DNA of 64,000 bases from Verrucomicrobiia bacterium (GTDB taxonomy: Bacteria > Verrucomicrobiota > Verrucomicrobiia > Verrucomicrobiales > DEV007), in NCBI GenBank assembly GCA_030427505.1, contig JAUICH010000001.1, positions 744,001-808,000 of the forward strand. Reading direction: 5' to 3'. The notes below the pieces were generated by a model. The model worked only from the letters and a program-made list of their open reading frames with translations. It did no database searches and was not told the origin of the DNA. How positions within the stretch are numbered: position 1 is the stretch's first letter; every line of letters starts with the position of its first letter. A program made the position numbers and the translations under genes. Shown one piece after another: positions 26,107 to 50,164 of the stretch.

Positions 26107-26172
26107 TATGCGTCCCCCGAAACGGGATCGCGGGGCTTGAAAACCGGGCGGAAGTCAGGCCATGATCCGGGC

Positions 26173-29100
26173 ATGATACCCCCGCATCTGACTTCGGTGC
26201 TCCGCCACGGACCGGTCATCGCTTTCGCCACGGTCGCGGCACTGCCATTCGCGGCCAGGGCCGCCGATCTGGAAACCAACGCCAAACACGCCCGCGCCTT
26301 TGAGAAACATCAGCTTTCCACGGAGTTTTTCTCCGAGGGCGCTTCCTTTGACGACCTGAACCAGGACGGCCACAACGACCTGGTTTCCGGTCCCTACGCC
26401 TACCTGGGGCCGGACTATTTGGAGAAGCTGGAGATTTATCCGCCGCAGCCCTTTAACCCCTCCGGATACTCCGACAATTTCTTTTCCTACACCTACGACT
26501 TCAACGGAGACGGCTGGGTGGACGTTTTGGTATTCGGATTTCCGGGGAAGGACGCCTCATGGTTCCAGAACCCAGGGGCGGAGGGTCAGAGCCAGGGCGC
26601 CCATTGGCGGCGGCATGTGGTGTTCGACGTGGTGGACAATGAGTCGCCGACTTTTACCGACCTGACGGGCGACGGAAAGCCGGAGATCGTCTGCTCCACC
26701 GGTGGGGTCTTCGGGTACGTGACGCCGGATTGGAGCGCACCGGAAAAGCCCTGGACCTTTCACCCCATTTCCCCTCCGAACGTGGCCGGGGCCAGGTTCA
26801 CGCATGGCCTGGGTGTGGGTGACGTGAATGGCGACGGCCGGATGGACCTGCTGGAAAAGAACAACTGGTGGGAACAGCCCGAGTCCCTGGAGGGGGACCC
26901 GGTTTGGAAAGGCCGGAAGATTTCTTTCTCCACCCGGGGCGGTTCCCAGATGTTCGCCTACGACTTTGATGGCGACGGCGACAATGACATCCTGACCGCT
27001 CTGGTGGCCCACGGCTATGGGTTGGCCTGGTACGAGCAGATCGCCGAACAGGATGGAACGAAGGGTTTCGTGCAGCACCTCATCATGGGGGAAAGCGCGG
27101 CTGACAATCCCTACGGCGTCTGCTTCAGCCAGCCGCACGCGGTGGACTTGGCGGACGTGGATGGGGACGGCGTGCTGGACGTGGTCACCGGAAAGCGCCG
27201 CTGGGCGCACAACGGACACGATCCGGGCGGGAACGACCCGGCAGTCCTCTACTGGTTCCGCACGGTCCGGCAGGGCGACGCTCCGAAAAGCGGGGCAGTC
27301 GAGTTTGTGCCCTATGAAATCGACGACCATTCGGGCGTCGGAGTCGATGTGGTGGCGGAAGACATCACCGGAGACGGTTTGGTCGATATCTTAGTGGGAA
27401 ATAAGTACGGCACCTTCATCCATGTGCAGAAGGCCGGAGCGGAAGGCGAAGATTCCTTCTCCGGAAAGCTGCCCCTGCAACCCCCGGTGCGGCAGGATTT
27501 CGTTGAGAATGGCCAGACGCCGGAGGAGGCGCTGAAACGCCTTTCCCTTTACGAAGGTTTCAACAAAGAGCTGATCGTCTCGGAACCGGACCTGGTGCAG
27601 CCCGTGGCGATGACGATCGATGCCCGCGGCCGGCTCTGGGTGGCGGAAGCGATTTCTTACCCTATTCGGCAGCCGGAAGGCGAAGGGAAGGACCGGATAC
27701 TGATCTTCGAAGACGCGGACGGAAACGGCTCCTTCGAGACGCGAAAAGTGTTCATGGAAGGCCTGAACCTGGTGAGCGGCCTGGAGGTAGGTTTCGGGGG
27801 TGTCTGGGTAGGCGCCGCGCCTGAGTTTCTTTTCATCCCGGATCAAGATGGAGACGACGTTCCCGACGGCGAGCCAGAAGTGCTGCTGGATGGCTGGGCC
27901 TTCAATGACACGCACGAAACCTTGAACGCCTTCAACTGGGGACCGGACGGCTGGCTCTATGGCTGCCATGGGGTGTTCAATCACAGCAATATCGGTAATC
28001 CGGGAACGCCCGATGCGGAGCGCACGCCGATGAACGCGGGCGTATGGCGGTACCATCCGCTGCGCCACGAGTTCGAAGTGTTCGCCTGGGGTTCCAGCAA
28101 TCCCTGGGGCGTGGACTTCAACGACCAGGGGCAGGCCTTCATTACCGCCTGCGTGATTCCTCATCTTTATCACGTCATCCAGGGGGCGCGTTACCAGCGG
28201 CAGGCGGGCACGCACTTCAATCCCTTCGTGTTCGATGACATCAAGACCATCGCCGATCACCTGCACTTCGTGGGAGACATCAAGGACCACGCCCACTGGG
28301 GCGGTCATGCGCCAGCCGCGCCGGCGGATACCCTTTCCTCTGGGGGTGGGCACGCCCACTGCGGGCTTTCGATCTACCTGGGCGACAACTTTCCGGATCA
28401 GTTCCGGGGCCGGCTCTTGTTTAACAACCTGCACGGCCATTGCATGAATCAGGATGGCCTGACGCGGGAGGGTTCCGGGTATATCGGCCGCCACTACCCG
28501 GAGTTCATGATGTCGAACGACCGCTGGCACATGGGCATAGCCCTGCGCTACGGACCTGACGGGGGCCTGTTCCAGATCGACTGGTACGACCAGCAGGTCT
28601 GCCACCGGCGCGACCCGGAGATTTGGGACCGCAGCAATGGCCGCCTTTACAAATACACCTACGGAAATCCCGAGCCGGTGAAGGTAAATCTGGCCGCGCT
28701 GAGCGATGGCGAACTGGCGGACCTGATGACCCATCGCAACGACTGGTATGTGCGCGTGGCGCGGCGTCTTTTGCAGGAACGCGCCGCCGCCGGGACCCTG
28801 GAGGGTGAGGTGGCAGTTACCAAACTGAACGCGCTGCTGAAAGACCATCCAGACGAAACGCGGCGGCTCCGAGCCATGTGGGCGCTACACGCGATGGACA
28901 AACTACCGGAGCCTGAGTTGGTGGCCTTGTTAGGTGACGAAGGCGAATACGTCCGCGGGTGGAGCCTCCAGCTCATGGGCGAAGACGGGACCGTTTCGGA
29001 GGAAGGACTGAAGCGGAGTGTCGAGCTGGCTAAGTCAGACCTTTCACCCGTGGTTCGCCTCTACCTGGCGGCTCTGCTCCAGCGTCTGCCGCTGGGCGAC

Positions 29101-30861
29101 CGCTGGGAGATCGCGGAAAGCCTGGCCGCTCACAAAGAGGACGCGGAGGATCACAATCTGCCGCTGATGTTGTGGTACGGGGTGGAGCCGCTGGTGCCGG
29201 AGAATCCCGGACGGGCCCTGAGCCTGGCGGCGGGATCGAAGATTCCGAAAGTGACAAACTTTATCTATCGCCGCCTGTCGGTGGAACCGGAGGGACGGGA
29301 AACGCTTCTCAGCCAAGCCGCGAAGTGGAAGGACAAACCGGAAGCCCAAACCGCCATCGTGGCCGAACTGGCGTCGATGCTGCGCGAGCGGGCCTCGGTG
29401 CCCATGCCGCCCTTCTGGGAGCCTGCTTATGATATTCTGAAAACCATCGAGGATCCGGAGCACCGGCGGAACCTGGAGCTACTGGGCATCAAGTTTGGAG
29501 ACCGGCGCTTGCTGCCCCGCTTCCGGGAAATCGTCTCGGATACCCGCGCGGACCTGGCCGAACGCGAAGCCGCGCTGGAGATCCTGCTCACGGCCAAGGA
29601 CGAAGAATCCGTCCCCGTATTCCACGAGATCATCCAGGGCCCCGAGACCCCGCTCAAGGAGAAGGTCATTCGCGGGCTGGCCGCCTTTACCGATGAGAAG
29701 ACTCCGGAGGTTTTGCTCAGCCAGTATGAAAATCTCAGCGAAGTGGAACGGGCGGACGCGGTGACCACTCTGGCTTCTAACAAGACCTACGCCCTGGCCC
29801 TACTGGAAGCGGTTGGCGCGGAGCGGATTCCGCGAGCGGACTTGGGAGCCTTCACCGCCCGGCAGCTTCGGACATACAAGGATGCCGCCATCAACGAAGC
29901 CACTGCCAAGCATTGGGGGTCCGTGGGCGAAACATCGAAGGAAAAGAAAGCGGAGATGGAAGCCTACAAGAAGAAGCTGGGCGGCAAGGTGCTGGCCTCG
30001 GCGGACCTGGGGAATGGCCGCCGCCTGTTTAACCAGACCTGCTATGCCTGTCACCGCCTCTTTGGTGAAGGCAATACCGTGGGCCCCGACATCACGGGGT
30101 CCAACCGGGCGAACCTGGACTATCTCCTCGAAAACATCATCGATCCCAGCGGCGTGGTCGGGAAAGACTACCGGCTAACCGTCATCAACACCAAAGACGG
30201 ACGGGTCATTTCCGGCATGGTCCGCAAAGAAAATGAAAGCGCCCTGACCGTGGCCATGGTGGGGGGCGATGAAGTTGTGCTGCCCATAGCGGAAGTGAAG
30301 GACCGGGAAGCCCTGCGCTTTTCCATGATGCCGGAAGGTATTCTGAAACCTTTCGACGACGCCCAGGTGCGCGATCTGATTGCTTACCTGCAAAGCCCCA
30401 AGCAAGTAGCCCTGACTGAGCCAGGCGAGATCCGGCTACAGGGTGAGAATCTGAAGATCGAAAAGTCGGCTGGTACGGTGCGGCCGCAGGGAATGGCGCA
30501 CTTCCCGAAGGACAAGTGGGAAGGAGATTCTCACCTGTGGTGGACCGGAGCCAAGCCTGGTGACGAATTGGAGATCGCGTTCGAGGTTCCCGAAACCGGT
30601 TCCTTCGAAATGAGCGTGGTCATGACCAAGGCGAAGGACTACGGGATCGTGGACCTCAGCCTGGATGGAGACATCAGTCTCTTGAAAAACTATGACCTGT
30701 TTAACGCCCCGGATGTGATTACCACGGGAGAAGTCTCGCTCGGCCAGCAGGATCTTACGGCCGGAGCGCATACCCTTCGGGTGAAGATGGTGGGAACCAA
30801 TCCCAAAGCGTTGGCGCGTTACATGTTTGGTCTGGACTCCTTGCGCTTGATGAAGCGCTGA
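26173..30861 (+). CDS. giant secreted PVC-type dehydrogenase/haem protein
   Basis: From the ATG at 26173 the protein has 1562 residues and a signal peptide (FATVAALPFAARA). Domains in order: seven FG-GAP/VCBS units with DxNxDG calcium loops (DLNQDGHNDL, DFNGDGWVDV, DVDGDGVLDV and so on, about 45-420); a PVC-type membrane-bound dehydrogenase propeller (VQPVAMTIDARGRLWVAEAISYP onwards, about 460-830); HEAT repeats (about 870-1240); a cytochrome c-like haem site CYACH, Cys1290 to His1294, with NTVGPDITGSNR; and a C-terminal sugar-binding-like sandwich. It probably oxidises extracellular sugars and passes electrons to haem. A TTG start 12 codons upstream is less likely. Confidence 0.92.
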   Translation: MIPPHLTSVLRHGPVIAFATVAALPFAARAADLETNAKHARAFEKHQLSTEFFSEGASFDDLNQDGHNDLVSGPYAYLGPDYLEKLEIYPPQPFNPSGYSDNFFSYTYDFNGDGWVDVLVFGFPGKDASWFQNPGAEGQSQGAHWRRHVVFDVVDNESPTFTDLTGDGKPEIVCSTGGVFGYVTPDWSAPEKPWTFHPISPPNVAGARFTHGLGVGDVNGDGRMDLLEKNNWWEQPESLEGDPVWKGRKISFSTRGGSQMFAYDFDGDGDNDILTALVAHGYGLAWYEQIAEQDGTKGFVQHLIMGESAADNPYGVCFSQPHAVDLADVDGDGVLDVVTGKRRWAHNGHDPGGNDPAVLYWFRTVRQGDAPKSGAVEFVPYEIDDHSGVGVDVVAEDITGDGLVDILVGNKYGTFIHVQKAGAEGEDSFSGKLPLQPPVRQDFVENGQTPEEALKRLSLYEGFNKELIVSEPDLVQPVAMTIDARGRLWVAEAISYPIRQPEGEGKDRILIFEDADGNGSFETRKVFMEGLNLVSGLEVGFGGVWVGAAPEFLFIPDQDGDDVPDGEPEVLLDGWAFNDTHETLNAFNWGPDGWLYGCHGVFNHSNIGNPGTPDAERTPMNAGVWRYHPLRHEFEVFAWGSSNPWGVDFNDQGQAFITACVIPHLYHVIQGARYQRQAGTHFNPFVFDDIKTIADHLHFVGDIKDHAHWGGHAPAAPADTLSSGGGHAHCGLSIYLGDNFPDQFRGRLLFNNLHGHCMNQDGLTREGSGYIGRHYPEFMMSNDRWHMGIALRYGPDGGLFQIDWYDQQVCHRRDPEIWDRSNGRLYKYTYGNPEPVKVNLAALSDGELADLMTHRNDWYVRVARRLLQERAAAGTLEGEVAVTKLNALLKDHPDETRRLRAMWALHAMDKLPEPELVALLGDEGEYVRGWSLQLMGEDGTVSEEGLKRSVELAKSDLSPVVRLYLAALLQRLPLGDRWEIAESLAAHKEDAEDHNLPLMLWYGVEPLVPENPGRALSLAAGSKIPKVTNFIYRRLSVEPEGRETLLSQAAKWKDKPEAQTAIVAELASMLRERASVPMPPFWEPAYDILKTIEDPEHRRNLELLGIKFGDRRLLPRFREIVSDTRADLAEREAALEILLTAKDEESVPVFHEIIQGPETPLKEKVIRGLAAFTDEKTPEVLLSQYENLSEVERADAVTTLASNKTYALALLEAVGAERIPRADLGAFTARQLRTYKDAAINEATAKHWGSVGETSKEKKAEMEAYKKKLGGKVLASADLGNGRRLFNQTCYACHRLFGEGNTVGPDITGSNRANLDYLLENIIDPSGVVGKDYRLTVINTKDGRVISGMVRKENESALTVAMVGGDEVVLPIAEVKDREALRFSMMPEGILKPFDDAQVRDLIAYLQSPKQVALTEPGEIRLQGENLKIEKSAGTVRPQGMAHFPKDKWEGDSHLWWTGAKPGDELEIAFEVPETGSFEMSVVMTKAKDYGIVDLSLDGDISLLKNYDLFNAPDVITTGEVSLGQQDLTAGAHTLRVKMVGTNPKALARYMFGLDSLRLMKR

Positions 30862-39150: not shown

Positions 39151-42100
39151 ATGAAGCGGTGCCGTAAGACTCCCGAAACACCCGACGGAACCTCTTCCAG
39201 CAAACGGGGGGTGGCGTTGCTGATGACGCTGACGATCACCGCTTTGGTGACCATCCTCGTGCTGTCCATTTTTGCCTTGGGGCAGAATGAGCTGAACGCG
39301 TCTACGCATTATCGGCGTGGTGTGGAAGTGGAAGGTTTCTCGCAGACAGCGGTGAATCTGGCGATCGCCCAGATCCGGGCGGCGACGAACCAGCCGGACC
39401 TGGCCTGGGCCAGTCAGCCGGGCGCGATCCGGACGTACAACCGCTACGGAGAATTCACCCAGGGTTACAAGCTCTACTCCAGTTCCCAGATGCGCGTGAC
39501 GCTGGAGAGCACCTTGACTCACGACCAACCGCCGGACGATTGGGATACCGTGGACCTGGGCACCCAGTGGGTGGATCTGAACGAACCCTTGATTCGGGGG
39601 AACGCCGTCCATTACCCGATTGTCGACCCTCGCGCCATGGACGAGTTGGGAGTGGAGGGGTTTGGCTACGATCTGGAGGATGTCGGCCAGGGACCGTCAA
39701 AGATCGGCCTGCCCATGCCCGTGCAGTGGATCTATCAGTTGCGCGATGGCACGCTGGGTTACGCCAACCGGTTCAATCATTTCATGCCGTTCGAGAAGGA
39801 AGGCCGCAAGCCAGACAAAGGGAACCCCATCGTAGCCCGGTTGGCCTTCTGGACGGATGACGAATGCGGAAAGATCAACATCAACACCGCTTCCGAGCCC
39901 ACGTTTTGGGACACGCCGCGGGCCGGCTCGCGCGCTGATAAGGAACTAGTGTTGGACGACCGTGCGTACGGGCTGTTTCAGCCCGTTCAGGGAGAGTATC
40001 AACGTTATCCCGGGCATCCGGCGACGACGGCCCTCAGTCCGGTGCTGCTGCCTGGCAGGGAGGACATTGCACCGCAAGACAAGGAGAAGCTGTATCGCCT
40101 GACGCCCAGAGTCGGGCCGGGAGGTTCGGAGGCGGGTACCTACTCTGTTTTGACATCTAAGCCGGTTCATCCAGACCATGCGAGGCTCTACCCGTCGGTG
40201 GACGAGTTTATCATGACTCCCCGGCGTGCGGAGAATCCGTTTCCGGAACTGAATGAGGGTGAAAGTCCTGAGACCTACCTGGCCCGGACCCGGTTCTTTC
40301 TAACGGCTCACAGCCGGGCGCCGGAACTGAACCTTTTCAACATGCCCCGTGTCAGCATATGGCCCACTCATTTGGAGAGGGAAACTCCAGCGGGCGTTCA
40401 CTGGACGCCCTATGATGAGATGGCGCGTCTCTGCGCCACGCTCGGCACCCCTGAGGTGAACGAAGCGTACTACCACTTTCAGCGGAAGAATAGCGATCAC
40501 CCCACCGAAGACTGGGAAACCATTCCAAGAAACCGGGAACTGTATGCCTACCTCCAGCAACTGTCGGCGAAGGAAGTTCCCGGTTTTGGCGGAAGATTCT
40601 ATGACAAGTACGGTGAGGATCAAGATCAGATCCTAACAGAGATCGTAGACTATATTCGGTCGACCAATCTGTATGACGAAAATCTGGAGCCTTCCCAGTA
40701 CACCGGCAAAGAGTGGCTGGACGAACTGAAACAATCCCAATACACCGATCCTCGCAACCATGGCAGCGCAACGGGGACCCGCCCGGGTCACGGTCAGGTG
40801 GCCCCTCTGTACAACGAAGAAAATGAGACTCGCGGTTTCGGGCGGTTCTACACCATTACCGAAGTAGGGATCCTGCTGATTTGCAACGCGGACGCCGGGC
40901 CGCCCAATCCGGAAGATCCCAGCCGGCCGCTCTACCCGAAAGGAGTGGCGGGAAGCAATGTGCCCCAACACCGGGCCCTGGCGAAGCCGTTGGACTTCAG
41001 GACGCGGCAGAAAAGCATCCAGGCCATGCTACTCTTCGAACTGTTCAGCCCCTCCCTGGGATGGACGCAATTGCATGACGACATTTCGTTGGAGGTTGAG
41101 TTGGTGCGGGACTTTGGCGCCGATGGGCAGACGCTGAGGTTTAACTCCGGCCACGACCGGCTGCAGAGCATGCCCGCCGCGGCTGGAGCAGCCGCGGGAA
41201 ACTCCGGTTGGGGTGGGACCACTGGCTTCTGGGGGCTACTGAGAGGCCGCCGTTCTCCACCGTCGGGACCGGTTCCCGAGGACCGGTACCCGTCCCTCAA
41301 TCGGGGCGACAACCGATCCAATAACGAGAGCTATGGCTATGAGGGAAATAAGAAGACCTCCACGGAAGACCACCGCGCCGCCTACCCGTTCATCAGTGCG
41401 CCAGTCGTGATCGATGGGATGGACGAGACAATGTCCCTCACCGGAGGGAAGCTGAGGATCCAGGTATACAGCGGCCACGATCACACCCCGAAGATCAAGA
41501 ACAGTATTCGCAAGCCACAGTTGGTACAGACGCTGGAAGTAGATTTCCCCGACACCACGCTGCCGGTGCCCAGGCTGATTACCAAACCGCAGATTCGAGG
41601 GCGAGAGCCCGACTTGGAGGGGCCGGAAGATCAAGATCCCCGGCCCGCCACCGGTGTGCTGCACCCAGGCTACTGGTGGGTCTTGAACTATGATGGGCCC
41701 GGCTTCGAGCGGGAGAGCGACGGAAAGAACTTCGTCCACGCTGGAAAGATCACGGACAAAGAGGGAAATTTCCTGGGATGGAGGAAGCGGCTTGTCCACC
41801 GCGGCCGTCTCTACAACGCGCAAACCCCCAATTGGCTCTTCCGGCCTGAGGACGTGGTGCGGTCCATGGTGACCAAACAGGCGGACTACCGGCTCATCGC
41901 CGGCCGAAGGGAGATTTCCAGCGATGAGTTTCAGCCGCACCGGGACTACGACTCGGCAGGCGTGCGCCTGGCTCACAACTTTGCCGGAGCCAATACGGTC
42001 GCGGCGCCGGGGTACGACCTGCCGGATCCCAAGACAGAGAGTGAAGAGCAGCTCGTGCCCGAGGTGACCTATTGGCCGGCCCGGCAGCCGGACTTTCCGT

Positions 42101-43149
42101 TTGGCTCTCCCAGGTGCGAAACGGGCGATTTCGACAACGGTATCTCCATCGCGACCGATGGCGCCTATATCAATAAGCCTGATGAAGGGAACGTGCTGCG
42201 CCGTTTCAATTCCGAAACGGGCAACTGGACCGGGATTCCCTACTACAAGAACGCCTTCAACCAGGCGGCCCTGCCAGCCTACTTCTCGCCGAACCGGCAG
42301 GTGCCATCCGCGGTGATGTTCGGTTCACTGCCTACCGGGATCAAACGCCAGATTCCTTGGCAGACGCTCCTGTTCCGGCCGCAGAAGGGGCATCCCAATG
42401 ATGCGAAGCCGGAGGACGGGGCGTTCCGGGGGCGAAGCATTCCACCCGACCATCTGTTGCTCGACTGGTTCTGGATGCCGGTGGTGGAGCCCTATGCCAT
42501 CAGCGAGCCGTTCTCCACCGGCGGCAAGATCAACATGAACTACCAGATCGTGCCCTTTACCCACATCCGGCGTTCCACCGGGATCAGGGCCGTGCTGAAG
42601 GAAGAGAAACTGCTGATCATTCCGCGCGATCAAGCGCCCTTTTACAAGAAGGCAGAAGGACAACACGTAAAGGAACCGTTGCGCCATTCGCTGGATGTCG
42701 GGGAAACCCTCCGGCAGTTTGAGGCTCGTTTCGCGGCAAACCGGCTTTTCAAGTCGGCTTCCGAAATTTGCGACCTGCACCTGGTTCCCGAAGATAGCCG
42801 TCTGGAAGACATGGACGAGGACTTCTGGGCGGAAAATGCTCTGACCGGAGACAACACGCGGGAAAGGCCCTATGCGAATATCTATCCGCGCCTGACGACC
42901 AAGTCGAATGTCTTTCGCGTGCACTACCGGGTGCAATTGTTGCAGCTGCCGCCCGCCCACCGGGCGGATCTTCTGGACCCGGAGTGGCTGGTCTTGCAGG
43001 CGGAGTACCGTGGATCCACTTTGATCGAGCGCTATCTGGATCCCGCCGAGCCGCTCGCCCCGGACTACGCGGTGAAACCGGAGGCTTCAGACAAGTTGGA
43101 CCGTTTCTATAAGTTCCGTATAATCAACAAGCGACGCTTCTCGCCGTGA
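39151..43149 (+). CDS. Verru_Chthon cassette protein A, copy 1
   Basis: The 1332-residue product carries a pilin-like leader: RGVALLMTLTITALVTILVL at residues 19-38, with Gly20 before the hydrophobic helix. The position that is Glu5 in most prepilins is Met here, as in GspK/PilX-type minor pilins. After it comes the family block LAWASQPGAIRTY followed by YKLYSSSQM, and later FWTDDECGKININTAS, PPDHLLLDWFWMPVVEPYA and EYRGSTLIERYLDPA. It is expected in the envelope, its large C-terminal part outside the inner membrane. The ATG is 27 bases after a promoter. The other A protein follows directly. Confidence 0.9.
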   Translation: MKRCRKTPETPDGTSSSKRGVALLMTLTITALVTILVLSIFALGQNELNASTHYRRGVEVEGFSQTAVNLAIAQIRAATNQPDLAWASQPGAIRTYNRYGEFTQGYKLYSSSQMRVTLESTLTHDQPPDDWDTVDLGTQWVDLNEPLIRGNAVHYPIVDPRAMDELGVEGFGYDLEDVGQGPSKIGLPMPVQWIYQLRDGTLGYANRFNHFMPFEKEGRKPDKGNPIVARLAFWTDDECGKININTASEPTFWDTPRAGSRADKELVLDDRAYGLFQPVQGEYQRYPGHPATTALSPVLLPGREDIAPQDKEKLYRLTPRVGPGGSEAGTYSVLTSKPVHPDHARLYPSVDEFIMTPRRAENPFPELNEGESPETYLARTRFFLTAHSRAPELNLFNMPRVSIWPTHLERETPAGVHWTPYDEMARLCATLGTPEVNEAYYHFQRKNSDHPTEDWETIPRNRELYAYLQQLSAKEVPGFGGRFYDKYGEDQDQILTEIVDYIRSTNLYDENLEPSQYTGKEWLDELKQSQYTDPRNHGSATGTRPGHGQVAPLYNEENETRGFGRFYTITEVGILLICNADAGPPNPEDPSRPLYPKGVAGSNVPQHRALAKPLDFRTRQKSIQAMLLFELFSPSLGWTQLHDDISLEVELVRDFGADGQTLRFNSGHDRLQSMPAAAGAAAGNSGWGGTTGFWGLLRGRRSPPSGPVPEDRYPSLNRGDNRSNNESYGYEGNKKTSTEDHRAAYPFISAPVVIDGMDETMSLTGGKLRIQVYSGHDHTPKIKNSIRKPQLVQTLEVDFPDTTLPVPRLITKPQIRGREPDLEGPEDQDPRPATGVLHPGYWWVLNYDGPGFERESDGKNFVHAGKITDKEGNFLGWRKRLVHRGRLYNAQTPNWLFRPEDVVRSMVTKQADYRLIAGRREISSDEFQPHRDYDSAGVRLAHNFAGANTVAAPGYDLPDPKTESEEQLVPEVTYWPARQPDFPFGSPRCETGDFDNGISIATDGAYINKPDEGNVLRRFNSETGNWTGIPYYKNAFNQAALPAYFSPNRQVPSAVMFGSLPTGIKRQIPWQTLLFRPQKGHPNDAKPEDGAFRGRSIPPDHLLLDWFWMPVVEPYAISEPFSTGGKINMNYQIVPFTHIRRSTGIRAVLKEEKLLIIPRDQAPFYKKAEGQHVKEPLRHSLDVGETLRQFEARFAANRLFKSASEICDLHLVPEDSRLEDMDEDFWAENALTGDNTRERPYANIYPRLTTKSNVFRVHYRVQLLQLPPAHRADLLDPEWLVLQAEYRGSTLIERYLDPAEPLAPDYAVKPEASDKLDRFYKFRIINKRRFSP

Positions 43150-43229
43150 GGCGAATTCAGCAGCGAGAAGACCCGGTTTGCGCGGCTAAAATAATCTTGA
43201 AAGGTCCGAAAATATTTGAGACGAATGTA

Positions 43230-43263
43230 TTGACGTCGTAAATGCAGGCATTTACAATGTAAA
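43230..43263 (+). promoter_or_regulatory. promoter and palindromes before the second A gene
   Basis: TTGACG (43230-43235), a 17-base spacer and TACAAT (43253-43258) form a good promoter. GTAAATGC-AG-GCATTTAC (43238-43255) is a perfect palindrome in the spacer, and TTTACA-A-TGTAAA (43251-43263) is a second one over the -10. The start codon is at 43319. Confidence 0.6.
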
Positions 43264-43318
43264 ACAATTTCACCATGTGGTCTTGATTCACGGAGTGTCG
43301 AATTAGAGGAATTGAAAC

Positions 43319-46300
43319 ATGAAAACCCCCAGTAAAGTTCAGGTATCCGATACCGCGCCGTCGCCGAGCAGTGACTCCGGTAAGAAGAAAGGGATCGCAT
43401 TGTTGACCGTGCTGACGGTAACGGCCCTTTCGACTATCCTGGTATTGACCTTCTTTTCCCTGGCCCAGAACGAACTGGTCTCGTCCACCCGGTATTCTCA
43501 AGGCATCGAAGCCCGGCAGTTTGCCGAAACCGCGGTGAACATGGTGGTCGGCCAGATTCGCAAGGCGACGGGACGGGACGTGCTGGGGAGCCAGGACATC
43601 TTTGCATGGGCTTCACAGCCTGGAGCGATCCGTCAGTACGATCAGGATGGAGAGTTTCACGCCGGGTATAAGCTGTACTCGGACGACGAGATGATTACCG
43701 CCACGGAAACGGCGCTGACCAAGGCGGACATCACGGAATTGCGGGAGTGGAATGACGCCCCCTGGCGGTGGGTGGACCTGAACGAGCCGATCGTCCGTGG
43801 CGACCAGGTTTATTTCCCGATCGCGGACCCGACCGCAAAGCTCATTCAGAAGGTGGAGGGCTTCGACTTTAACAATACGCTCATCGGGGCTAGCCCCATG
43901 CAGACACTGCTGCAGCAGAAACGCAGCGACGCCCTTCCGATGCCCGTGGTTTGGATATACCAGCTTCAGGACGGCACGATGGGTACGATGAGCTTTGGTA
44001 AAAAGTTCGTTCCTCTGGTCTCCTCGGCGCCTAGTCCGACGGAGGAAAACCCCATCGTGGGCCGGTTCGCGTTCTGGACGGATGACGAGTCCTGCAAGTT
44101 GAACGTAAACGTTCACGCTGGTGGGGCGGCATGGGATACCCCGCGCGCCAGTGGCGATATTGACCGGGCCCTGGGGCGCTATCAGCCGGCTCAGCACGAA
44201 TGGCAGCGGTATCCGGGGCACCCGGCCACCACGCACCTTTCCCCCGTCTTGTTCCCTGGGCTGGTTAACCTAGGGTTGAACCGGGCCGAGATTGAAAAGA
44301 TTTATAAACTAGTTCCGCGAATTGTGGGCGGTGGTTCAACCGCGGGGACGCGCAAGGTTAACCCGAATGACCCCAAGGAAGCGAACGGTCTGATCGCCGA
44401 CAAAGACCGGCTCTATCCTTCCATGGACGAGTTCATTATGGCCATGGACCGCAAGGAAAACGAGTTTCCCACCAGCGACTCAATTCCTTCTGAAGTGCTG
44501 GAGCGGAGCCGCTTCTTTTTGACCACGAGCAGCCGGGCCCCGGAAGTGACTCTCTTTAACACGCCGCGGATCGTGATGTGGCCCACCTACTTCAAGACCA
44601 ATACTAGTGGCACGCAAGAGGCGTTTACCACCGCCTATGACAAGCTGATCCGGTTCTGCGGCGAAGTCGGGAAAATCAGTCAACAGAATAAAGCGAAGTA
44701 CTCTGGCTACCCGGAGCGTTACCAGTATTACTTTCAAAGAATCAGCGCGGATAGTCCCACGGCTGATTTCGAGGGAGATAGTGAGGTAAACCCTGAAGGC
44801 ATTATACGAAACCGGGAGCTGTATGCCTATCTGGATTGGTTGACCAGCACGGACATTCCTGGAATTGGCGATAAATTTTCCAACAAGTATTCCGATGAAG
44901 ACCGGTATGCGACGCTAACCCAGATTTTCGACTACATCCGTTCGACAAATCTTTTTGATGACACGCTTTACGAAGATTTTAGGGATGCGTTCAGTAAAAC
45001 CAATACTGACGAGCATCTGACGTTCACCAATCTCCGTTGGCAGGGGGGGAACGATCGCGGCATGCATCCCGGCCACGGTCAGGTGACGCCTATCGAGATT
45101 GAATACAAAGGGGTTGATACGCGCGGGCACGGGCGATTCTACACCTTGAGCGAGGTGGCGATTCACCTTATCGCCTGCGCGGAGGGCAATGGTAAGCCGG
45201 GCGGAGTGCGGGTAGAGGATTTTCCGAGTAACTACCCCCGATACACCGGGCCTTATTGGGACAGTGACGACCCGGGGTGGGATTCAGATGCGATTGAAGA
45301 GGCAAAGAAACCGGAAAACTGGAACTATGCTTTGGAACCCGGTCAGCCGTTGGGTAACAATCAGACGCTGGTGCAGGCGGCCATGCTGTTTCAGTTGTTC
45401 TCTCCGAGCTTGGGGTGGATTCCGATCAACCCAGATATGAAATTCAAAATCAACGTGGAAGGATTCAGTGTCGGTGGTAATTCGCTTACGTGGGGGCAAG
45501 GGTCTGGTGGTAGTGAGATTGTTTTTCCCGCCAACCGCAATGGTCTGAGTTTCACTTGGGCCGGTCGGAATTCAGGCGGTTACGTGGATTTCCGGGCGCT
45601 GTTGCGCGGAACAAAAGACAACGGAGACATTAACTATCCGGCCTATAATGGGAAAGTGCCTGGAGAAGTGGCGGACGACCATAAGGTCACCCGGGTGGCT
45701 AAGTTGGGCTTTGGAGCCTTCACCGGATCGTATGATGGAGGAAAGAGCAGTCCGGGTCCCGATATTTACTACCCGTGGATCAGTCAGCCGGAAGTCGTGT
45801 CTGGAAGTAATATGTCAGTGGGTGGCGGCACGGTGACCGTCGACATCTTCGCTGGCGGCGGTATGGAGAGCGGACACGAAACCGATCCGAAGGTGGTGCA
45901 GCATTTCGAGATCGATTTTCCGGACTTTTCGTCTCCGAAACCTGAGTTGGCGCGCGGGACCGCCGAGCGATGGAACGACGAAAAAACGGTGCTGGTTGAC
46001 GCGCAATCCATTGCCCCGGAGTGGTGGATCTTTAACGCGGACGGCTGCAATGTGGGCAATAACCACCGCGGCCGCTTGAAAGGGGCCCATAAGAGCACCA
46101 CGAGCCCCAATTACAACGATACAGGAGACGAACGGTGGCGGAGTGGGCAGTTCCGCGGGTCCTTCATCCGGGAGGGGGATGTGGTCCGTTCCATGGTGGT
46201 GGCTGGCAGCGATCCCAGATTGATCATGGGCCTCAAAGAGGTTGAAGGAGGGGCTACTGGACCCCATTTCGTGCCGCACGCGGATTACAATAAGAATGAG

Positions 46301-47644
46301 CCTTTCGCGCATAGTCTGTCCGATAGCGTCAGGGGCATGTCTCACCCAGGTTCTGGCGGGAAGTCCAACTATAAGAAAGACTATGAAGACGCTGACTTTC
46401 AGTTGGTGCGTGACGTGAAGCTGGACGGGAACCGGCGCCCCTACTTTGCCCGGGCGGACGGGTATGAAAGTTCAGTGGTTCAAAAGTACGGAGATTTTGA
46501 CAACGCCTGGGGCAACCTTCCTTCAGGCCCCTTTATCAACAAACCTGATGAGGGGAATACCCATGCATTGCTGCATTCCACGGACCCGAATTCCGGGTGG
46601 CAATTCTTGCGTGACTATGGAGACTTCCCCTACTTCGTTCGGGACTGGGTGCATGAACCGCAGGGGCCATCCTATTTCTCGCCCAACCGCATTTTGCGCT
46701 CTCCGGCGCAATTTGGTTCCCTTCCTTCGGGGATGGCAAGCTTCAAACCCTTCCAGACCCTGCTCTTCCGGCCCAATGTGGAAGGTGGCATTTATACCAC
46801 TCACCCGGGAGCGGAGAGTCCGCCGGATCACTTGCTGATGGACTTCTTCTGGATGCCGGTGGTGGAGCCGTTTGCCATCAGTGAGCCTTTCTCCACGGCT
46901 GGAAAGGTTAACTTGAATTACCAGATTCTTCCGTTCACCCACATTACCCGCAATACCGCCCTGCGTGGAGTGTTCCGGTCAGAGTATATGCTCTGCGTGC
47001 CGAACCGGTGGAGTAACTCCTTTAAAGTGGGCGTGGGCCGCGGGCGGGGATATCACTGGTTGAACAACCCCTTTGGGGGGGATCTCCAGCAAAAAAGTCT
47101 GCGGGCCGTCATCGAACCAGTAGAAACCTTGTCACAGTTTGAGAAGAAGTTCGATAACGATGAGATTTTCCGTTCCGCTTCGGAGATCTGCGAGGTTCAC
47201 TTGATCCCTCAGGATGTGGGTGAGGCCCAGGGATTCCCGAATGCGACCGGAACCTACACCCCCAGTGTATCGGACATGGCCACAGGGAAATACTGGTCGG
47301 ATCATGCGCTGGTCGGAGACAACTCAAGGGAGAATCCGTATGCGGATATCTATCCCCGTGTGACGACGAAGTCGAACACGTTCAACGTCTTCTACCGGGC
47401 CCAGGTCATCCAAAAAGCCAAGGGAACGAAACCTGACGAGTGGGATGTAAACTATGACCAGGTAGTGGCCGAGTATCGGGGATCCACGCTGGTGGAACGT
47501 TACATTGAGCCGGAAGGGCTTTTGGACGACGCCAATGATCCGGACTACGGCACGGAGTTCAATAAATACGAGAATCATGACATTCCCGGCTTGGACGAAC
47601 TCTATAAATTCAGGGTCGTCAGCACGCGCCGCTTTGCGCCGTAA
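43319..47644 (+). CDS. Verru_Chthon cassette protein A, copy 2
   Basis: This 1441-residue paralogue of the preceding gene shares its plan: leader GIALLTVLTVTALSTILVL (Gly25, Thr in place of Glu5), FAWASQPGAIRQY with YKLYSDDEM, PPDHLLMDFFWMPVVEPFA, PYADIYPRVTTKSN and EYRGSTLVERYIEPEG. The similarity is clear but far from identical; loops and the centre differ, and it is longer by 109 residues. It has its own promoter and palindromes, so A1 and A2 could be made under different conditions. It ends 37 bases before gene B. Confidence 0.9.
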   Translation: MKTPSKVQVSDTAPSPSSDSGKKKGIALLTVLTVTALSTILVLTFFSLAQNELVSSTRYSQGIEARQFAETAVNMVVGQIRKATGRDVLGSQDIFAWASQPGAIRQYDQDGEFHAGYKLYSDDEMITATETALTKADITELREWNDAPWRWVDLNEPIVRGDQVYFPIADPTAKLIQKVEGFDFNNTLIGASPMQTLLQQKRSDALPMPVVWIYQLQDGTMGTMSFGKKFVPLVSSAPSPTEENPIVGRFAFWTDDESCKLNVNVHAGGAAWDTPRASGDIDRALGRYQPAQHEWQRYPGHPATTHLSPVLFPGLVNLGLNRAEIEKIYKLVPRIVGGGSTAGTRKVNPNDPKEANGLIADKDRLYPSMDEFIMAMDRKENEFPTSDSIPSEVLERSRFFLTTSSRAPEVTLFNTPRIVMWPTYFKTNTSGTQEAFTTAYDKLIRFCGEVGKISQQNKAKYSGYPERYQYYFQRISADSPTADFEGDSEVNPEGIIRNRELYAYLDWLTSTDIPGIGDKFSNKYSDEDRYATLTQIFDYIRSTNLFDDTLYEDFRDAFSKTNTDEHLTFTNLRWQGGNDRGMHPGHGQVTPIEIEYKGVDTRGHGRFYTLSEVAIHLIACAEGNGKPGGVRVEDFPSNYPRYTGPYWDSDDPGWDSDAIEEAKKPENWNYALEPGQPLGNNQTLVQAAMLFQLFSPSLGWIPINPDMKFKINVEGFSVGGNSLTWGQGSGGSEIVFPANRNGLSFTWAGRNSGGYVDFRALLRGTKDNGDINYPAYNGKVPGEVADDHKVTRVAKLGFGAFTGSYDGGKSSPGPDIYYPWISQPEVVSGSNMSVGGGTVTVDIFAGGGMESGHETDPKVVQHFEIDFPDFSSPKPELARGTAERWNDEKTVLVDAQSIAPEWWIFNADGCNVGNNHRGRLKGAHKSTTSPNYNDTGDERWRSGQFRGSFIREGDVVRSMVVAGSDPRLIMGLKEVEGGATGPHFVPHADYNKNEPFAHSLSDSVRGMSHPGSGGKSNYKKDYEDADFQLVRDVKLDGNRRPYFARADGYESSVVQKYGDFDNAWGNLPSGPFINKPDEGNTHALLHSTDPNSGWQFLRDYGDFPYFVRDWVHEPQGPSYFSPNRILRSPAQFGSLPSGMASFKPFQTLLFRPNVEGGIYTTHPGAESPPDHLLMDFFWMPVVEPFAISEPFSTAGKVNLNYQILPFTHITRNTALRGVFRSEYMLCVPNRWSNSFKVGVGRGRGYHWLNNPFGGDLQQKSLRAVIEPVETLSQFEKKFDNDEIFRSASEICEVHLIPQDVGEAQGFPNATGTYTPSVSDMATGKYWSDHALVGDNSRENPYADIYPRVTTKSNTFNVFYRAQVIQKAKGTKPDEWDVNYDQVVAEYRGSTLVERYIEPEGLLDDANDPDYGTEFNKYENHDIPGLDELYKFRVVSTRRFAP

Positions 47645-47681
47645 GGGAATCGAAGCGCAAGAATTCCAACCATCATTGATT

Positions 47682-48311
47682 ATGAAAACCCTCAGTTCAC
47701 GCGGAGGCACTGGCCTCCGCTCCCCACGGAGTTTCTCTGGCTTCAGCTTGATTGAGGTGACCATCGCGATTGCGATTACCGCTATCGGCTTGCTGGCTCT
47801 CCTGGGCATGTTGCCTCAGGGAATGAAGACGATGCAGGAGGCGGGCGATCGCGCCTTGGAAGCCCGTATTCAACAACAGATCCTTGGGGAAATCCTGCTT
47901 ACCAACTGGGACAATCGTGCCCAGTATGACTATCGGAAGGCAGATGGCGATGGGTTGAGGTACTATGACGATCAAGGAATCGAACTGGACAAGTCTAGGA
48001 TGAATGCGGATGACTTCGATTTCCGGCACGTTTACACGGCGAGAGTCCATGTCCCAGACGTGGGAGACACCATGCCTCGAAGCATCTACGACGGAAAGTC
48101 TGCTAAGAACTACAGCGGCGTTCAGATTCCAGCCGAAGGTAACGCCTCTTTTTTAGACAAAGACGTGCAACTGGTGGTGATTGAGATTTCCAGTGTGACG
48201 GACCCAAATTTCGATTTCGACGACTCCGATTACTTTTCCAGAATCCGGACATTTCAAAGTTCGCTGGTGAAAATGGGATTCGATTTCAATCCTAATGTGA
48301 GTTCGAATTGA
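47682..48311 (+). CDS. Verru_Chthon cassette protein B, pilin-like
   Basis: The ATG used gives 209 residues; an upstream in-frame region is ignored because the leader would be internal. The prepilin leader is short and basic, cleavage expected after Gly20, followed by FSLIEVTIAIAITAIGLL with Glu at position 5 of the mature protein. GLLALLGMLPQGM after the helix resembles GspI/PilV minor pilins. The rest is a small folded domain with acidic stretches. A prepilin peptidase must be supplied from elsewhere. Confidence 0.88.
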   Translation: MKTLSSRGGTGLRSPRSFSGFSLIEVTIAIAITAIGLLALLGMLPQGMKTMQEAGDRALEARIQQQILGEILLTNWDNRAQYDYRKADGDGLRYYDDQGIELDKSRMNADDFDFRHVYTARVHVPDVGDTMPRSIYDGKSAKNYSGVQIPAEGNASFLDKDVQLVVIEISSVTDPNFDFDDSDYFSRIRTFQSSLVKMGFDFNPNVSSN

Positions 48312-48398
48312 CCGGATTGAAGGCACGGGATTGTCACCTTTGAAAACCCCAGAAGCGGCCGTGGCGACAGGCCTCTTCACGGCGAAAGAGAAAGAAGC

Positions 48399-49466
48399 AT
48401 GAAGACTCTAAAAATAAGGGAAAGCGCGAAGAAAGCGGATCGCGATTCGAGAACGGGTTTCACGATGATTGAGTTGCTCGTTTCGATGACGATTCTCTCG
48501 GTTCTGTTGCTGATGCTGACTCAGTTGCTGACTCAGGTGCAGAACACCTGGTCATATTCCGAGAGCCGCATTTCACAGTTTCGTGAAGCCCGCGTGGCAT
48601 TCGACATCATCTCGAAGAATTTGTCCCAAGCCACGATGAATACCTACTGGGACTACGAATACGATCGGGGCAATCAGGTCAAAAGATACCGCCGGCAATC
48701 CGAGCTTCACTTCCTGACGCTGCAAGCCAGAGATCTGGATCTTGGGAAGCCCACGACGACACACGCGATCTTTTTCCAGGCTCCCTTGGGATTCTCCAGC
48801 CGCTACCGGAATTTGGACAACCTGTTCAACGGAAGAGGATATTTCGTGGCGTTCTCCGATGACCTCGATTTCAAGCCCCAGTTTATCAAGGCGGAACCCA
48901 AGTTCCGGTTTCGGCTGATGGAGTACCGGGCGCCCGCGGAAGAAAATCAGGTTTTCGTGGATGGCGATGAAGAGCGCCAAGCAGACCGGGAACAGATTTT
49001 CGACTGGTGGTACCAATACGAGCAAGAGAAATACAGCTACCCGCTGGCAGAGAATATTATCGCTTTGATTATCTCCCCCAGGGAAACACTGGAAGATTCG
49101 CGAAAAGGCGCGGGTGGATCGGTGGAGACTGATACGTTCAGCAGTATTGCTCCCGAGTATACATTCGATTCAAACGACCGGACTAAGAAAGCTTTCACTC
49201 AAATGGTTCCACCGCTGGTAAAACTGACCATGGTGGCGATAGACGAAAATTCGGCTGTTCGTCTGGAAGCTCAGTACGGACGAAGTATGCCTGACTTGGT
49301 GCCCAATAGCCTTTTCCGGAACACACGCGACTACCAGCGGGACTTGGACGAGCTGAAGAAGGACCTCATTGATGCCAACGTGAATTTCAAGGTATTCAGT
49401 ACCATGGTAGCCATCCGTAGTGCGAAGTGGAACACCTTGATCCCGCAGGGAGATATCGGCAGTTGA
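48399..49466 (+). CDS. Verru_Chthon cassette protein C, pilin-like
   Basis: The 355-residue protein has a basic leader, cleavage after Gly20, and FTMIELLVSMTILSVLLLML with Glu5. The helix runs on into TQLLTQVQNTWSYSESRISQFREARVAFD, like the GspJ/PilW class of minor pilins. The remaining 290 residues form a large globular domain, facing the periplasm or exterior. It starts 87 bases after gene B and ends 53 bases before gene D. Confidence 0.88.
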   Translation: MKTLKIRESAKKADRDSRTGFTMIELLVSMTILSVLLLMLTQLLTQVQNTWSYSESRISQFREARVAFDIISKNLSQATMNTYWDYEYDRGNQVKRYRRQSELHFLTLQARDLDLGKPTTTHAIFFQAPLGFSSRYRNLDNLFNGRGYFVAFSDDLDFKPQFIKAEPKFRFRLMEYRAPAEENQVFVDGDEERQADREQIFDWWYQYEQEKYSYPLAENIIALIISPRETLEDSRKGAGGSVETDTFSSIAPEYTFDSNDRTKKAFTQMVPPLVKLTMVAIDENSAVRLEAQYGRSMPDLVPNSLFRNTRDYQRDLDELKKDLIDANVNFKVFSTMVAIRSAKWNTLIPQGDIGS

Positions 49467-49519
49467 GGCTCGCCTGTCCGTTGTGATTCATTTGTTAATC
49501 TGACATACTGATTTTGTTT

Positions 49520-50164
49520 ATGAAGGTCTTTCGTAATTCCCGCGAGAAGCAGGGCTTTTCGCTGATTGAAATGTTGATCGTACTCTCGGTGGTGGGGTTG
49601 CTCTTCGCCATGTCCGCGCCTCAGTTCTTCACGCTGATGCAGTCGACCAGTCTCACGACGGAGGGGGCTTTTTTAAGAAACAAGCTTACCCAGGCGCAGC
49701 AGATTGCCCTTTCTAAAAACGCGGACGTGGAGGTGCGTTTCTTCAAATTCAAGGATGAAGCACAGGTGGAAACCGTGGAACAGTTTCGTGGGATCCAGTT
49801 CTACACCTACAATCAAAGAGGCGAGGCGGAACCCATCAGTCAGTTCTTCAAGCTGAAGGCTCCCATTGTTGTCAGCAGTGACAATAAGATGTCCACCGTC
49901 CTGCGGCCCACCTCGGATGACTTCTATTCTCCGCGTAGGGGGCGTTCCGAGATCCCCATCGAAGGCGTGCGAAGGGAAGCTGAATTTGTATCCTTCCGGT
50001 TTCGTCCTGACGGCTCGACCGATCTCCCCGGTAAAGCGGGTTCGGATACTTGGCACCTGACTCTCGTGAAGGAGACGGATGGAAGCAATGGGAGCGTCCC
50101 GGATAACTTTTACACCGTTCAGATCGACCCCTTTAATGGCCGTCTCTTGGAGTTCCGGCCGTAG
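49520..50164 (+). CDS. Verru_Chthon cassette protein D, pilin-like
   Basis: The ATG gives 214 residues; a TTG two codons earlier is also open. Leader MKVFRNSREKQG, cleavage before Phe13, then FSLIEMLIVLSVVGLLFAM with Glu5, followed by RNKLTQAQQIALSKN as in GspH/FimT pseudopilins. The C-terminal part is a beta-rich domain ending in FNGRLLEFRP. This is the last cassette gene; A1-A2-B-C-D are all on one strand. Confidence 0.88.
   Translation: MKVFRNSREKQGFSLIEMLIVLSVVGLLFAMSAPQFFTLMQSTSLTTEGAFLRNKLTQAQQIALSKNADVEVRFFKFKDEAQVETVEQFRGIQFYTYNQRGEAEPISQFFKLKAPIVVSSDNKMSTVLRPTSDDFYSPRRGRSEIPIEGVRREAEFVSFRFRPDGSTDLPGKAGSDTWHLTLVKETDGSNGSVPDNFYTVQIDPFNGRLLEFRP

Follow-up and report, generated by a model that had tools for sequence, protein, structure and literature searches.

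A cassette of five pilin-type genes

Five consecutive genes, A1, A2, B, C and D, lie in that order on the forward strand at positions 39151-50164 of the window, that is, the whole 64,000-nucleotide stretch of DNA that was analysed. Both A genes encode giant, predicted GspK-like (K-type) minor pseudopilins without Glu5, A1 with 1332 residues (39151-43149) and A2 with 1441 residues (43319-47644), while B (47682-48311), C (48399-49466) and D (49520-50164) encode Glu5-bearing proteins that resemble the GspI/PilV, GspJ/PilW and GspH/FimT minor pseudopilins, respectively. All five proteins exceed the curated NCBIfam cut-offs for the Verru_Chthon families, which establishes their membership of this cassette: A1 (E 4e-290, 966 bits) and A2 (9.6e-271, 902 bits) match TIGR02600, B matches TIGR02598 (1.8e-19), C TIGR02599 (6.4e-100) and D TIGR02596 (7.6e-41). 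B additionally matches PilV (2.9e-8) and GspI (6.6e-4), and D matches GspH over its first 63 residues (1.1e-6). Gene positions and leaders agree with a preliminary description of this DNA, made from the letters alone, which had reported five successive genes with pilin-type N termini, two of them coding for very large proteins devoid of Glu5.

Translation of B starts at the ATG at 47682, as a longer, TTG-initiated open reading frame (ORF) from 47505 would overlap A2; for D, the ATG at 49520 is the more likely start. The intergenic gaps measure 169 bp (A1-A2), 37 bp (A2-B), 87 bp (B-C) and 53 bp (C-D), and thus fit a single operon. Promoter-like hexamers in the A1-A2 gap (TTGACG-17-TACAAT, 43230-43258, forward strand) could uncouple A2-BCD from A1, although such sites occur in the region at chance level (5 found versus 4.9 expected). 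The genome itself (6.4 Mb, 96.5% complete) holds this one cassette only; its two A genes and its single C gene were the only ones above the cut-off in a profile search.

The cassette recurs across Verrucomicrobiota

Scanning GTDB genomes with an alignment of A1 and A2 yielded 233 contig stretches encoding A relatives in other genomes, from which we kept 80 loci, all of them belonging to Verrucomicrobiota as judged by their titles, and located B, C and D around A with local hidden Markov models (HMMs). Given these 233 A-encoding stretches and the recurrence of B, C and D beside them, the cassette is not a chance assembly. Complete cassettes in relatives follow the rule of one gene of each class, a check called for by the preliminary description, and occur in four main orders, namely ABCD (18 loci), BCDA (18), BCAD (11) and DBCA (7), in all of which B sits immediately 5' of C. 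The DBCA arrangement corresponds to H-I-J-K, the usual gene order of type II secretion systems (T2SSs). The window is the sole sampled locus with two adjacent A genes. One cassette is split, with B, C and D placed about 3.8 kb from A on the opposite strand (L048:3743-13813).

Glu5 was present in every scorable B (60/60), C (64/64) and D protein (62/62), as scored with a motif that itself required E; the two B and two C rows lacking the motif were truncated by the end of a contig or had no recognisable leader in the called ORF. Independently of this scoring, the Glu5 column is invariant in each of the three family alignments, being invariant among 52 D proteins and the sole invariant column among 52 B proteins. 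None of the 66 A proteins, in turn, carries Glu5, their fifth position being I, L, T, M, V, A, S or C. B, C and D also match PF07963 and have the class III leaders, cleaved after G/A, that mark minor pilins of type 4 filaments.

Beyond these cassettes, divergent C-like genes adjoin divergent A-like ORFs, all below the NCBIfam cut-offs, on two contigs of one genome (G155, C73 and C74) and one contig of another (G149, C531), a hint of a second type of cassette that is more distantly related. Furthermore, in 78 of 145 sampled genomes of the phylum, TIGR02600 weakly matched the N-terminal regions of predominantly large ORFs (~400-1500 aa), while a match over the cut-off was found in only 3 of the same 145; large K-type minor pilins probably form a wider family that has yet to be described.

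A proteins combine a GspK-like frame with a variable insert

A1 matches the GspK profile NF037980 over residues 19-93 (1.1e-9), and HHalign aligns A with GspK over 55 columns (E 5.7e-7). This sequence match is confined to the N-terminal 55-75 residues, and sequence comparisons, HHalign included, gave no significant similarity between A and GspK beyond the N-terminal helix. With 38.2 and 19.9 bits against a cut-off of 130, the A proteins fall short of the NCBIfam GspK equivalog and are, by this measure, relatives rather than orthologues of GspK. An A homologue from locus L026 (1178 aa, ~40% identical to A1) was modelled at full length with AlphaFold2 from a 66-sequence alignment, resulting in a mean pLDDT of 86.5, a pTM of 0.89, a long N-terminal helix (residues 2-64) and closing strands at the C terminus. 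GspK (3ci0_K) was the best VIA-align match, with a Z score of 9.3 over 251 of 280 residues and an rmsd of 3.6 Å, followed by a row at Z 4.3, so that the homologue displays a pilin fold with the GspK alpha-domain. Foldseek ranked 3ci0_K only 19th (E 0.72), probably because the GspK parts lie far apart in the A chain. The predicted K fold of A1 and A2 themselves rests on their full-length homology to this modelled protein. The outcome named beforehand as fatal to the idea, a lack of any pilin-like fold outside the N-terminal helix, was thus not what the model returned.

A nested segment of ~425-450 residues interrupts the conserved frame. In A1, this beta-rich module spans residues ~576-1000 (40876-42150, bounds approximate), as delineated from low identity, length variation and the homologue model; mean pairwise identity across the family is 24.6% inside it versus 40% and 46% in the flanks. 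The A2 module occupies residues ~617-1066 (45167-46516, bounds again approximate), the two A proteins being 31% identical inside the insert and 48-49% outside. Insert length varies widely across the A family, and the L026 model shows a beta-sandwich at residues 509-804, which, within the full-length model, returned only generic beta-sandwich matches (Z ~4). Taken together, low identity, length variation and the beta-sandwich indicate a conserved K frame that bears a variable head, and the structural match to GspK, the absence of Glu5 and the cassette context characterise A as a GspK with a fast-changing, beta-rich insert of ~425 residues. Duplication of the entire K module in tandem, considered on account of two 'GK-x-N-x-N ... 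S-x-[DS]E' motif pairs, was rejected as the main architecture, since the confident model comprises one GspK fold over residues 34-1178 with an insert.

C adopts a GspJ-like fold

The AlphaFold2 model of the C protein in the window (pLDDT 90.8; long N-terminal helix at residues 8-61) matched the J subunits XcpW (5vtm_W, Z 10.8), EpsJ (3cfi_B, 10.7) and GspJ (3ci0_J, 10.3) in VIA, along with the Thermus type IV pilus (T4P)-like pilin TTHA1219 (Z 10.9), with the next unrelated row at Z 5.1; Foldseek likewise returned EpsJ (3cfi_B, E 7.1e-4, probability 1.00). C hence combines Glu5 with a GspJ fold that extends beyond the N-terminal helix, bearing out its earlier designation as GspJ-like, at a score of 29.9 bits against the NCBIfam gspJ equivalog cut-off of 64.85. 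B and D possess the Glu5 leaders of GspI and GspH and score below the respective equivalog cut-offs (gspI, 20.1 bits versus 44.35; gspH, 28.7 bits versus 80). The labels B = I and D = H are accordingly putative, drawn from leaders, weak HMM matches and gene order. A search of the PDB with the B profile returned PsaE and other rows at chance level and was discarded.

Filament machinery is encoded elsewhere in the genome

The genome contains one prepilin peptidase, ten secretin matches and 12 T2SSE-family matches, comprising eight full-length PulE/PilB-type proteins and four shorter ATPase matches. Three GspG clusters exceed the cut-off (C11, C45 and C47), each carrying a K-like gene and at least one more pilin-type gene. 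Several PulE/PilB-family ATPases lie outside the T2SS clusters, and T4P-type ATPases are present. Of the 18 GspG-like pilin matches in this genome, most score below the cut-off and lie apart from the three T2SS clusters (C50, C6, C56, C54, C17, C4 and C15). Motor and secretin are thus encoded away from the cassette, as had been anticipated: the T2SS core (E, G, D and prepilin peptidase) is there, with candidate status for any particular partner of the cassette, and the contrary case of a cassette in a genome devoid of such a core does not apply. Since each of the three T2SS clusters has its own K, the cassette represents an extra tip set; the same circumstance makes the need for one less evident.

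The filament in question could also be a type IV pilus, with A serving as an adhesin-like modular tip, comparable to PilC/PilY1 or to Streptococcus sanguinis PilB/PilC, rather than as a part of a secretion system. H-I-J-K-type minor pilins do cap type IVa pili (T4aP) as well (PMC10191384), modular pilins that carry a grafted adhesive module are found widely (PMC8179133), and both the resemblance of C to TTHA1219 and the additional ATPases outside the T2SS clusters would suit such a role. However, A matches the K subunit of a T2SS, 3ci0_K, and no K-type structure from a T4P appeared among the matches listed, an absence that carries little weight. We regard a pure pilus cap as a serious possibility, albeit not the probable case.

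Neighbouring genes hint at polysaccharides and exoproteins

The commonest family beside cassettes are autotransporter-type beta-strand repeat proteins (TIGR02601/PATR) of up to ~3300 aa, some with PEP-CTERM tails. They account for 9 of 88 immediate neighbours versus 2 of 76 distant genes (one-sided Fisher p 0.049), the latter sample consisting of the longest distant ORFs and hence being biased to large size. A regex-based contrast for the repeats gave 13/139 versus 1/389, in sets that are not length-matched and include near-duplicate genomes. Glycoside hydrolases and LacI-type regulators recur near cassettes, too, and in the window, the cassette is preceded by sugar-dehydrogenase-type genes and followed by genes for a GDSL hydrolase and a sulfatase. 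Judging from this gene content, the cassette may serve in the use of extracellular polysaccharides or in the export of exoproteins. ORFs of ~1800-3300 aa adjoin the cassettes at L029, L034, L044, L052, L061, L071 and L078, with beta-strand repeats recognised by NCBIfam in L044, L052 and L061 and by regex only in L029, L034, L071 and L078. A further large gene in the window (26137-30861) encodes a 1574-aa protein composed of FG-GAP repeats, DUF7133, HEAT-like and cytochrome c domains.

Such surroundings raise the question of a dedicated T2SS cargo adaptor, in which each giant K would recognise one large exoprotein or exoenzyme from an adjacent gene and initiate the pseudopilus that pushes it out. 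The frequency of PATR-type neighbours, the recurrent hydrolases and regulators and the GDSL hydrolase and sulfatase following the window cassette all lean this way, as does another Verrucomicrobiota species with 67 PulG-like pseudopilins, where a pseudopilin is induced on alginate (PMC13274419). Yet the association is weak and concerns a minority of cassettes; the A2-type relatives L084 and L085, residing beside EPSP synthase and multihaem cytochromes, do not show it, and A1-type genes found apart from B, C and D in other genomes share neither a neighbour nor a conserved flank with the window. The neighbourhood thus provides a weak link to cargo, and we consider the adaptor reading somewhat doubtful.

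Two A clades accompany one B-C-D set

In the tree of A proteins, A1 groups with L013, L014 and L015 (support 0.999-1.0) and A2 with L068, L077, L084-L086 and L090 (support 0.99), which makes them old paralogues and not a fresh copy. Gene counts, which leave out weak matches below the cut-off and stem partly from draft or fragmented metagenome assemblies, gave A:C ratios of 2:1 in the genome studied here, 3:1 in G145 and 2:1 in G146, G147 and G152, next to 1:1 in G150 and G151 and 2:2 in G154 and G155. In G145-G147, the only BCD set stands behind an A2-type gene, with the A1-type gene placed on a different contig. The second A gene of G152 has at least 6 kb of BCD-free sequence on either side, and in G153 the A and C genes are on separate contigs. 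Two of the orphan A1-type genes abut one end of their contig (L013 downstream and L015 upstream, in G145 and G147), and some orphans could be non-functional.

The surplus of A over C genes supports alternative tips on common H-I-J subunits, so that the proposal of A1 and A2 as alternative tips, put forward from this one locus, now has backing at genome scale from the counts and the orphan A1-type genes; A1 and A2 themselves would then share one BCD set. A mere local duplication with one copy decaying and no alternative-tip role, to which the uniqueness of the adjacent A pair among sampled loci might point, is very improbable, as A1 and A2 fall into two well-supported clades, each with other species, both frames are intact and full-length, and A1-type genes persist in three other genomes.

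Discussion

In type II secretion, the minor pseudopilins H, I, J and K form the tip of the pseudopilus, K being the subunit without Glu5. The K and J folds, the Glu5 pattern and the gene order support the initial view of the cassette as a GspH-I-J-K-like tip with two K-like subunits. We consider it probable that the operon encodes a complete minor pseudopilin set of this type (D = H, B = I, C = J, A = K) that tips a type 4 filament, with A1 and A2 alternating on one BCD set. The filament would be a T2SS pseudopilus or a type IV pilus. From the features above, we infer a complex that could form as follows. The single prepilin peptidase would cleave the cassette leaders, and B, C and D, with their Glu5, would assemble beneath A, which, lacking this residue, could only cap. 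An assembly ATPase and platform from elsewhere would add major pseudopilin below. Being nested in the conserved K frame, the variable module would be exposed at the outermost end of the filament. A1 and A2 would compete for, or be expressed alternately with, the one B-C-D set, and the choice between them would give a single filament two heads, for cargo recognition or surface binding.

Like GspH-I-J-K of the T2SS (XcpU-V-W-X), the cassette comprises four classes with class III leaders, of which three have Glu5 and the fourth does not, and shares the GspK fold of A, the GspJ fold of C and, in seven relatives, the H-I-J-K order. It differs in lacking GspG, E, F and D, in its A proteins, which are 4-5 times longer and contain a nested module of ~425-450 residues, and in that several A genes may accompany one BCD set. 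As in the T4aP tip (FimU-PilV-PilW-PilX plus PilY1), H-I-J-K classes would cap a type 4 filament; there, however, a small K subunit, PilX, is accompanied by PilY1 as a separate cap, whereas the extra bulk of the cassette is inside K itself. A also resembles modular pilins such as S. sanguinis PilB/PilC and Thermus TTHA1219, in which the tip exposes a bulky module mounted on a pilin frame, as we propose for A. In contrast to the C-terminal module of S. sanguinis PilB, that of A is nested inside a K-type frame already bearing the GspK alpha-domain, and A exceeds the 860-residue extreme for modular pilins named in PMC8179133. Finally, the window departs from the NCBIfam description of Verru_Chthon cassettes, which gives no function, in having two A genes for one BCD set.

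Capping of H-I-J-K-type tips of type 4 filaments by a subunit without Glu5 (PMC10191384) and the grafting of modules onto pilins, the GspK alpha-domain included (PMC8179133), are already known, and the families have been catalogued by NCBIfam without a function. We found no publication on the cassette or naming its families in the literature searched. What is new is the assignment of the cassette as an H-I-J-K-type set, its giant K with a nested module and the repeated finding of more K than J genes. Going one step further, the K-type giants may be interchangeable heads, with ancient A paralogues competing for one H-I-J base, so that exchange of the cap alone would direct one pseudopilus machine to different cargo or surfaces; this bolder reading we hold at a little short of evenly balanced. 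To our knowledge, no such combinatorial tip system has been described for T2SS or T4P.

Overall, the analysis proposes a function for four families known by name only, which are expanded in Verrucomicrobiota, a phylum of major polysaccharide degraders. Research on type II secretion has yet to settle how the pseudopilus tip chooses its substrates, and a constant H-I-J base with variable K heads offers natural material for domain-swap tests of substrate choice. If the caps are interchangeable, K would be the specificity determinant, and, if this holds true, a bacterium could change the head of one filament machine.
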